DNA of 64,000 bases, from assembly GCF_016765775.1 (NCBI RefSeq), contig NZ_JAESVN010000006.1, positions 1 to 64,000 on the forward strand, read 5' to 3'. The stretch is from Szabonella alba. GTDB taxonomy: Bacteria > Pseudomonadota > Alphaproteobacteria > Rhodobacterales > Rhodobacteraceae. The notes beneath the pieces were generated by a model. It saw nothing but the letters and a program-made list of their open reading frames with translations. It was not told the origin of the DNA and made no database searches. The position numbers were made by a program, and so were the translations under genes. This document shows, one piece after another, positions 41,061-47,274 of the stretch (the first letter of the stretch is position 1; every line of letters starts with the position of its first letter).

Positions 41061-42362
41061 TCATTCGGACCGGATGAACCCTTCCGCCGCCAGTTCCGCC
41101 ATCAGAAGCGTGCAGTCGGCCTCAAGCCGGTCCTGCCCGATATCAGGAAAGAGCGTCGACAGCGCCTCGGCAAAGTCGCGGGCCGATCCGGGCAGTTCCA
41201 GCATCGCCCAGATCGCGCGGGCCGTCGGGTTAAGCTGCCACAGCATCCCGTCGCCCGGCCACCACAGAAAGGCGCTGTTGCCAAGGACCCGCACCGCCAT
41301 GCCCGGCGCGCGGCGCCAGACCGCATCGGGATCGACAGGGTCGGCGCGGTCCTGCGGCCCGTCCTCTGCCGCCACCGGTGGAAGGGGCGGGCCGATTTCC
41401 AGATCCTTCGGCATAAGGCACGGCCCGCCAAAGGCGCGACGCAACAGCCGCACGGCATCTTCCAGATCCTCATAGACCAGCCGCAGCACCGGCACGCCGT
41501 CAAGAATACGCTCGGCGGTGGCATAGGCCCCGGCGGCATGGGCGAAATCGGTGATGCTCTGCTCGACCAGCAGGCGCAGCGCATCCTCGGGCTCCATGGC
41601 GTGAAACCCCGCCGCACCGGGCCTGCGGTCCAGCATCACGATGGCACCAAGCGGTGCGGCCCGGCCCTTGCGCGCCAGTCCCGGCGCCAGAAGATAGCCG
41701 TAACGGTCATCTGCGGGACCCAGATGCGCCTTAACATGGGCGCGGAATTCCGGCGTGACGGTCGCGGGCAGGGGCAGGCGCAGGCGCGGCGCGATGCCCA
41801 GCGCGCGGCCCGTTCCATCCGCACCCAGTGCCAGAACATCGTCGCAGAAGACCGTGATACCTGTCTCTGCCGTCAGCCGCGAAATCAGCGTGGACTTGCC
41901 CGCCCGATGCGCGCCGGTCAGCGCAATCAGACGCCCCCCGATCTCGAACGCGCCGCAATGCAGGCCGATACCGCCCTTCCCCGCCATCCCGGCCGAGGCC
42001 GCCTGCGCCAGATCGGCAATCACCGCGCAGGCCGCACTGGCCTCGGGCAGATCGTCCAGCGGCGCATCGGTATAGGCGGAATGGACCCGGTACCGTCCGC
42101 CCGGGCGCGGCTCGGCCAGTGACAGGACGGGCCCGCCCTGCGCCGCGCGGATCGGCGCGCGATTGGCAGCCGTCTGCGGATCCCAGCCCGAACGGCGGAC
42201 CCGCCAGCCCCGCAGACAGCGCAGTAACGTCTCCGAGAGCCCCCCTTCGGCCGGCAGGATCACCGGCCGGTACGCGCCCCGCAGATCCAGCCGGATCCAT
42301 GTGTCCGAGGGGCGTGACAGCACGCCCCCCGTGGCTTCCATCTGCAGATCGCGGAACGTCAA
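41061..42362 (-). CDS. HprK-like kinase fused to a PqqD-like domain
   Basis: A 433-residue protein with three parts: an N-terminal region of ~125 residues without a known fold, an HPr-kinase-like P-loop domain (GAHRAGKST at 150-158, FCDDVLALG after it), and a C-terminal PqqD-like domain (NSAFLWWPGDGMLWQLNPTA RAIWAMLE). HprK-like kinases with PqqD partners occur in the so-called HPr-rel-A systems, thought to modify peptides; here both are on one chain. The TTG start at 42362 lies three bases after the GSR-rich gene and has GGAGG seven bases upstream, inside the end of that gene. The adjacent exported protein is the obvious candidate substrate, by position only. Confidence 0.78.
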   Translation of the reverse strand: MTFRDLQMEATGGVLSRPSDTWIRLDLRGAYRPVILPAEGGLSETLLRCLRGWRVRRSGWDPQTAANRAPIRAAQGGPVLSLAEPRPGGRYRVHSAYTDAPLDDLPEASAACAVIADLAQAASAGMAGKGGIGLHCGAFEIGGRLIALTGAHRAGKSTLISRLTAETGITVFCDDVLALGADGTGRALGIAPRLRLPLPATVTPEFRAHVKAHLGPADDRYGYLLAPGLARKGRAAPLGAIVMLDRRPGAAGFHAMEPEDALRLLVEQSITDFAHAAGAYATAERILDGVPVLRLVYEDLEDAVRLLRRAFGGPCLMPKDLEIGPPLPPVAAEDGPQDRADPVDPDAVWRRAPGMAVRVLGNSAFLWWPGDGMLWQLNPTARAIWAMLELPGSARDFAEALSTLFPDIGQDRLEADCTLLMAELAAEGFIRSE

Positions 42363-42365
42363 GGA

Positions 42366-42746
42366 TCAGCCTCCGAAGATCGTGCGGACCCAGCCGGGCG
42401 TATCGGCGCGGAACGACCGGTTCCCCGAGGACCGCGAGGCCCGCCCCGACGGGAAGGACCGTCCCCGGCTGTTGGCACCACGGCGCGACGGACCCGACCG
42501 CCCCCCACGCGAACCACCCCGCGAGGATCCGCGCGACGACCCGCCCCGGGACCCACCGCGCGACCCGCCACCCGAACCGCCCCCACGCGACCCACCGCCG
42601 GAACCACCACCGGAATTGCCGCTGGCATGGGCTGCATTCAGCCCCAGAAGCGCCGGTGCCATATAGGCAGAGCCTGCAACAAGGCCCGCGCGAATCAGCA
42701 GACGGCGGCGCGAGACATCGACAGTGTTATCGGTTTTCTTCGTCAT
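42366..42746 (-). CDS. Tat-exported Gly/Ser/Arg-rich small protein
   Basis: A 126-residue protein with a twin-arginine signal (VSRRRLLIRAG, cleavage likely after AHA near residue 41). The mature part is almost wholly Gly, Ser and Arg in GGGS, GGSR and SSRG units and ends with a small folded-looking tail ADTPGWVRTIFGG. Neither the signal nor the repeat corresponds to a named family I know. It is the first gene of a two-gene unit with the kinase-PqqD fusion, and AGGAAAGGAAACC precedes its ATG. Ser-rich sequence would offer many phosphorylation sites. Its low-complexity DNA is G/C-rich but in keeping with the genome. Confidence 0.75.
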   Translation of the reverse strand: MTKKTDNTVDVSRRRLLIRAGLVAGSAYMAPALLGLNAAHASGNSGGGSGGGSRGGGSGGGSRGGSRGGSSRGSSRGGSRGGRSGPSRRGANSRGRSFPSGRASRSSGNRSFRADTPGWVRTIFGG

Positions 42747-46947: not shown

Positions 46948-47274
46948 TCAGCCGCCCTTTTCGACATTCTCGCGAAATGCCTGCGCGAATCGATCCTGCT
47001 TTGCCGCATCCGCCTCGGTCTGATGGGCCGCGCGCCAATCGTCATAGGGCATCCGGTAGACAATCTCGCGCGCGTCTTCCTTGCTCATCTCCAGACCGCG
47101 CGCATTGGCCGCCTCCTGATACCAGCGCGACAGGCAGTTGCGGCAGAAGCCTGCAAGATTCATCAGGTCGATATTCTGCACGTCGGGGCGCTCGTCCAGC
47201 AGATGATCCATCAGGCGGCGAAAGGCGGCAGCCTCAAGCTCGGTGCGGGTGGCGGCGTCGGGTATTCCAGTCAT
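46948..47274 (-). CDS. DUF1244 family protein
   Basis: The 108-residue product matches the small conserved DUF1244 family: AAFRRLMDHLLDERPDVQNI, DLMNLAGFCRNCLSRWYQEA and EIVYRMPYDDWRAAHQ. A Cys-x-x-Cys (CRNC) is present. The role is unknown. It starts two bases after the N-formylglutamate amidohydrolase gene and is cotranscribed with it. Confidence 0.88.
   Translation of the reverse strand: MTGIPDAATRTELEAAAFRRLMDHLLDERPDVQNIDLMNLAGFCRNCLSRWYQEAANARGLEMSKEDAREIVYRMPYDDWRAAHQTEADAAKQDRFAQAFRENVEKGG

Follow-up and report, generated by a model that had tools for sequence, protein, structure and literature searches.

A kinase-PqqD fusion gene paired with the gene for a Tat-signal protein whose leader carries a YxxP motif in Szabonella alba and relatives

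Organization of the locus

The window, by which we mean the whole stretch of 64,000 nucleotides analyzed (Szabonella alba, contig NZ_JAESVN010000006.1, positions 1 to 64,000), carries on its minus strand two neighboring open reading frames, a gene for a protein with a Tat signal and then a gene for a kinase-PqqD fusion. The features are listed below.

42366..42746, minus strand: gene of the Tat protein, the predicted exported substrate (126 aa plus stop), made up of a leader and a Gly/Ser/Arg-rich core
42624..42746, minus strand: leader, residues 1-41, with SRRR Tat motif, hydrophobic stretch and AHA cleavage site (predicted from sequence)
42654..42665, minus strand: YMAP (Y28xxP31, then L33), that is, YxxPx[hydrophobic], inside the Tat hydrophobic region; candidate motif for binding by a RiPP recognition element (RRE)
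42369..42623, minus strand: predicted mature core, 85 aa with 21 Ser, 2 Thr, 30 Gly and 16 Arg; putative phosphorylated part
42370..42374, minus strand: GGAGG, from which the kinase would be translated, within the final codons of the Tat protein gene (ribosome-binding site); sequence ATCTTCGGAGGCTGATCCTTGACG
41061..42362, minus strand: HprK-type kinase fused to a PqqD-type RRE, 433 aa, TTG start
41958..41960, minus strand: H135 of the His-Lys-Asp-Asp set, in 88/90 homologues
41889..41915, minus strand: P-loop GAHRAGKST with catalytic-site K156; A154-S157 invariant in alignment A1, K in 89/90
41838..41843, minus strand: D174-D175, the HprK-type Asp pair, in 87/90 and 89/90 homologues
41073..41258, minus strand: PqqD/RRE domain, residues 369-430; PF05402 in 21/21 fusions, closest solved chains being the RREs of lasso peptides and of linear polyphosphorylated peptides (LPPs)
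41115..41117, minus strand: D416, aligned to LppB D70 (alignment to 9x8z), kept in 77/80

An earlier note on this DNA had placed both the ribosome-binding site and the start codon of the kinase inside the end of the Tat protein gene. The GGAGG does lie there, seven bases from the TTG, whereas the TTG itself (42360-42362) falls 3 nt past the TGA stop of that gene. On the same strand, the pair is flanked by an HpcH/HpaI-type lyase gene upstream and accA downstream, neither of which hints at its function. The Tat protein gave no match above cutoff in the family libraries searched, PHROGs and PADLOC returned nothing informative for either protein, the promoter and terminator scan gave nothing useful, and a scan of the named genomes with the single protein gave no confirmed relatives. 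Also on the minus strand of the window are genes for a protein of 504 aa in which ten matches to RTX-type calcium-binding repeats were found (PF00353; 45281-46795) and for a 108-aa DUF1244 protein (46948-47274).

The kinase-PqqD fusion

The presence of an HprK-type kinase and a PqqD domain on one chain, as claimed by the earlier note, was borne out by the PF05402 match (E 1.5e-8, residues 369-430), by the P-loop and by profile and fold matches. The single-sequence HMM for HprK identity matched weakly (TIGR04352, 16.7 bits for the window protein against a cutoff of 200). Profile comparison matched the fusion to the HprK of PDB entry 3tqf (E 6.7e-5) and to the lasso RRE TbiB1 (5v1u; E 9.5e-8), and the PqqD domain to LppB (9x8z; E 3.7e-7). 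The AlphaFold2 model of the 433-aa fusion has a mean pLDDT of 86.6 and a pTM of 0.82, and the closest solved folds are PEP carboxykinase (PEPCK; 1.9e-7) and HprK/P (1kkl; 5e-5), which share one common kinase fold. The HprK-type identity is clear by profile and fold.

The essential HprK active-site residues, on which the earlier note had made its proposal depend, are present: H135, K156, D174 and D175 are kept in 87 to 89 of the 90 homologues. Since they are kept so widely, the kinase should be active. The same His-Lys-Asp-Asp set is essential in lasso-peptide kinases (PMC9266682). In the RRE of the LPP systems, Asp70 of LppB holds the leader Tyr and Asn33 holds the kink at Pro (PMC13381572). 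The first aligns to D416 of the fusion and the second to N378, a position that is Asn in 60/83 and Asp in 22/83 homologues.

Recurrence of the pair

The distribution of the two genes was explored in a family set of 296 genomes, one per genus, using for the leader a profile of 36 positions built on the leader alone (A2). The kinase is found in 24 of the 296 genomes and the leader, at E<=1e-8, likewise in 24, with 23 genomes holding both (Fisher test, 5e-32). In the lone leader-only genome the contig breaks off about 300 bases past the leader gene, and this last stretch codes for the N-terminus of the kinase. The remaining genomes of the family gave leader matches of only 1e-5 or weaker. The co-occurrence of the fusion with an RR-signal protein, which the earlier note had suggested looking for, is therefore nearly complete.

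Gene order points the same way. A gene with the RR leader lies directly upstream of the fusion and on the same strand in all 20 loci with wide flanks (L027-L046), as well as in two of three further loci, L109 and L110; the third has a truncated kinase, and its contig is 4 kb long. The two genes are thus adjacent in every relative with intact sequence, as the earlier note had expected. Moreover, when the leader profile alone was used to search 398 genomes of the phylum, it found five new genomes, four of them outside the class, and all five carry a full-length kinase-PqqD fusion directly downstream of the leader. Because of this co-occurrence, and because the leader-only search found the fusion each time, the pairing is not due to chance: the kinase and the leader are associated.

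A Tat signal with an embedded YxxP motif

The protein encoded beside the kinase is, as first described, a Gly/Ser/Arg-rich protein with a Tat signal. It begins with MTKKTDNTVDVSRRRLLIRAGLVAGSAYMAPALLGLNAAHA, followed by the start of the core at SGNSGGGSGGG, and combines a twin-arginine motif (SRRRLL), a hydrophobic region and an AxA site (AHA before S). The Tat machinery is present in the genome (TatC, E 9.6e-60), and export by Tat is predicted from sequence.

The leader holds a second conserved element. In the alignment of profile A2, which matches the own-genome leader with E 6e-15, the invariant positions are R, R, Y and P. Tyr-x-x-Pro-x-[hydrophobic] occurs in 76/79 distinct leaders, a count in which the Pro is partly built in because the pattern used to choose the first seeds required Pro, but not Tyr, in this area; in 73 of the 76 it stands exactly 15 residues after the Arg-Arg. 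Among the 20 general Tat-signal profile matches of the own genome, some of which are spurious frames, YxxPx[hydrophobic] was found in none, and YxxP is not required by general Tat signals. The motif matches the published [Y/W]xxPx[L/V/I/A/F/Y], through which the PqqD-type RREs of lasso peptides and LPPs bind their leaders (PMC13381572), and our alignment predates our finding of that motif.

The leader may therefore carry a double code, with the twin arginines addressed to Tat and YxxPx[hydrophobic] to the RRE, and its invariant YxxP, which the earlier note had not noticed, would provide a concrete mechanism of recognition. In an AlphaFold2 model of the natural read-through chain of peptide and kinase, the leader is helical with a pLDDT of about 60 and without a docked strand; the output gives no contacts.

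HprK-type kinases classically phosphorylate HPr, and the fusion could in principle act on some other protein, such as a PTS carrier, with the Tat protein being merely a low-complexity secreted protein from the same transcript. Certain homologues from other families would suit such a role, as they adjoin a regulator of the RegA type: in L088, L090, L096 and L103 the kinase homologue directly follows what we take, by eye and from the C-terminal sequence, to be a RegA/ActR-type response regulator. However, the near-perfect co-occurrence, the leader-only search that found the fusion each time and the match between YxxP and the RRE leave little room for another target, which we consider highly improbable.

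The tail of the Tat protein

The tails of the fused systems have little in common except Ser/Thr. Repeats such as PSRPSRPSR, PTRPSRPTR, SEPSEPSEP, AASAASAAS and SGGGASGGG keep the Ser/Thr while the spacer residues vary (RP, EP, AA, GG). Compared with shuffled tails, pairs of Ser/Thr are enriched at spacing 3 (1.98x) and spacing 6 (1.83x), and depleted at other spacings (0.66-0.80x). The tail encoded in the window is rich in Ser and shows no such periodicity, with 4 pairs at spacing 3 against 5.2 expected. Low-complexity tails can expand by slippage. The pattern fits Ser/Thr as the modified residue and is compatible with it rather than proof. Ser-richness is not universal, since the cores of split systems in other families are often short Cys peptides of the form 'P-S/T-x-C', with a Ser or Thr just before the Cys, and not Ser repeats.

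Conservation is highest in the leader rather than in the tail, and the tails differ widely between types, as would also be expected if the fusion were a Tat proofreading chaperone, with the PqqD domain holding the signal peptide and the kinase-like domain using ATP for release, while the cargo stays unphosphorylated. REMP chaperones are known to bind Tat signals. Nevertheless, all four residues required by phosphotransferring lasso kinases are conserved, an unfolded low-complexity cargo has no need of a folding check, and the nearest characterized kinase-RRE pairs phosphorylate Ser. For these reasons we regard a chaperone as unlikely.

Split forms and other proteins with the leader

Many of the other families in the class have split forms instead, with a kinase of about 300 aa and a PqqD protein of about 90 aa encoded by separate, adjacent genes. 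The leader peptide adjoins these split systems in L081-L087, L093 and L095, and is otherwise elsewhere in the genome. Of 27 genomes of the class with kinase homologues, most of them with no leader beside the kinase, 17 have the leader, in some cases tens of kb away. The ten leaderless genomes have weak or partial kinase matches, with one clear exception (G479), where the match is fairly good. In a tree of the kinase domain, read by its branching order alone, most fusions group together, and the fusion L077 falls among the split forms; fusion or fission has therefore probably occurred more than once.

For several genomes with a leader-kinase spacing of about 40 kb, an intervening photosynthesis cluster was considered. 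This idea was dropped as unsupported because the genes next to the leader, judged by eye, resemble hldE and mmcB. L159-L190, from genomes in which kinase and PqqD genes are split, also yielded short leader peptides whose core reads 'P-S/T-x-C ... C'; some of these genomes have two to three in tandem, and many of the peptides adjoin a gene that we take by eye to be hldE. An orphan leader protein (L144:4420-4929) has a basic region and an SSSGG repeat, and in its motif the Pro is replaced (YVAT).

The leader is also found on larger proteins. The own genome encodes on contig C11 a subtilase (PF00082; L112:7091-8536, the same as L026:1435-2817) that bears the Tat/YxxP leader as well as a linker rich in Gly and Ser; the neighboring gene, on the opposite strand, appears by eye to encode an ECF sigma factor. 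L027 and L031 likewise have a subtilase with this leader, upstream of the pair. The presence of ECF factors at subtilase loci is indicative only, as the ECF query was in an antisense frame. The own-genome subtilase also matched IetS weakly, on account of its S8 domain. In L034, L035, L037, L038, L045 and L109, the kinase is followed by another protein with the leader, this one carrying PepSY at its C terminus, and then by an OmpR-type regulator and a histidine kinase, possibly a sensory version of the system. These subtilase/ECF and PepSY/two-component variants are counted by locus only.

Should docking occur at the leader, these larger proteins would count among the substrates. There might then be a general pathway for secreted phosphoproteins, in which a leader-reading kinase phosphorylates, in the cytoplasm and before Tat export, any protein with the Tat/YxxP leader. 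Its clients would include, besides small peptides, larger proteins such as the own-genome subtilase and the PepSY proteins that precede two-component systems, with export and phosphorylation specified in one signal. We put this forward tentatively, at somewhat less than even chances.

Comparison with known systems

The earlier note had compared the pair with the HPr-rel-A systems (TIGR04352), which also join an HprK-related kinase to a PqqD partner, there separate and here fused. This comparison is not the best one. The equivalog scores of the window protein (given above) and of L038 (39.9 bits) are far below the cutoff of 200, and membership was rejected on that ground; a Tat leader is not known to be part of the family definition. 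The phosphorylating RiPP pathways are closer, the nearest known being the LPPs of Bacillota and the paeninodin-type lasso kinases.

The LPP systems (LppA, LppK, LppB, LppS; PMC13381572, 2026) likewise have a YxxP leader, an HprK-like kinase and a PqqD-type RRE, and a linear core with no macrolactam cyclase. Both the HprK-like kinase with His-Lys-Asp-Asp and the PqqD/lasso-B1-type RRE were found in the fusion. The LPP precursors are 35-200 aa long and vary at the C terminus (PMC13381572), which is a further likeness. Their kinase acts on core Ser (PMC13381572), which we count as a likeness on the assumption, by analogy, that Ser would be phosphorylated here as well. The two differ in that no Tat signal is reported for the LPP leader and that LPP kinase and RRE are separate proteins (PMC13381572). 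Of the LPP leader consensus YxxPxVLxHQxIxFETxxS, only YxxPx[hydrophobic] is shared, the rest of the leader here being the Tat signal. LPP clusters also hold an SpI-like peptidase, an MsbA-like exporter and an NTP transferase (PMC13381572), none of which was seen to recur here: NTP_transf_5 is absent from the genome, and the peptidase and exporter are absent among the neighbors. LPPs are reported as restricted to Bacillota, with phosphates on one Ser (S3) (PMC13381572).

The paeninodin-type kinases (PadeK, ThcoK, SyanK, PsmK), which work with B1 RREs, are likewise of HprK type with His-Lys-Asp-Asp and act on an RRE-guided precursor. They phosphorylate a precursor Ser, a likeness that again presumes the same reaction in the present system. 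Lasso clusters, however, need a B2 peptidase and a C cyclase, whereas the present system has no lasso core. The B2-type Transglut_core3 (PF13471) had no match in the own genome and no cyclase gene was seen beside the pair; lasso membership was rejected on the lack of the B2 peptidase.

The NTP transferases of paeninodin-type and LPP clusters, and the pairing of Ser/Thr with Cys in split-type cores, would be in keeping with phosphorylation as an intermediate step, the phospho-Ser then being glycosylated, nucleotidylated or eliminated to dehydroalanine to give a different mature modification. Against this, the own genome has no NTP_transf_5 or lasso B2 peptidase match, and no lyase or cyclase recurs beside the pair in the neighborhoods examined. 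We consider such a further step quite improbable.

In the bufferins and other MNIO-modified RiPPs, an export signal also replaces the typical RiPP leader and modification must precede export (PMC12452194). They differ from the present system in using Sec, not Tat, and MNIO plus DUF2063 chemistry, mostly on Cys, with no kinase and no PqqD. Sec signals in RiPP precursors are known but called rare (PMC12452194), and no equivalent with a Tat signal as RiPP leader was found in the open-licence literature searched. The present system looks like an undescribed variant in which the leader is a Tat signal and the kinase is fused to the RRE.

Proposed mechanism and implications

The earlier proposal, in which the fusion would phosphorylate Ser residues of the neighboring Tat protein before or during export to give a modified surface peptide, is partly supported. 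The computation establishes the pairing, the leader family, its motif and the conservation of catalytic and pocket residues, and from these the steps of docking, phosphorylation and export are inferred. The two genes probably form an operon that yields an exported phosphoprotein: the PqqD domain would dock the leader, the kinase would phosphorylate the tail and Tat would carry out export. The Tat signal of the small protein would double as a RiPP-type leader, with RR read by Tat and YxxPx[hydrophobic] read by the RRE. Binding of this leader by the PqqD domain would take place in the cytoplasm, through Tyr28 and Pro31 and with Asp416 among the residues used, and it may also hide the Tat signal until modification is complete. 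The HprK-type domain would then use its His-Lys-Asp-Asp set to move phosphate from a nucleotide to Ser/Thr of the flexible tail, perhaps at many sites. Once loaded, the protein would leave the enzyme, pass through Tat and be cleaved behind AHA by an ordinary signal peptidase.

If this is true, a single stretch of 41 residues serves both as export code and as docking motif for the modifying enzyme, which suggests why Tat is used, as the cargo must be modified before export. The chemistry of HprK-type kinases and RREs, known from the LPPs of Bacillota and from lasso peptides, would then also operate in at least 18 families belonging to one class and in one family outside it, and a large set of proteins without a function would gain a likely one. 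The two proteins would also offer a simple handle for making phosphorylated secreted polypeptides. The pair suggests a bacterial route to secreting phosphorylated proteins.
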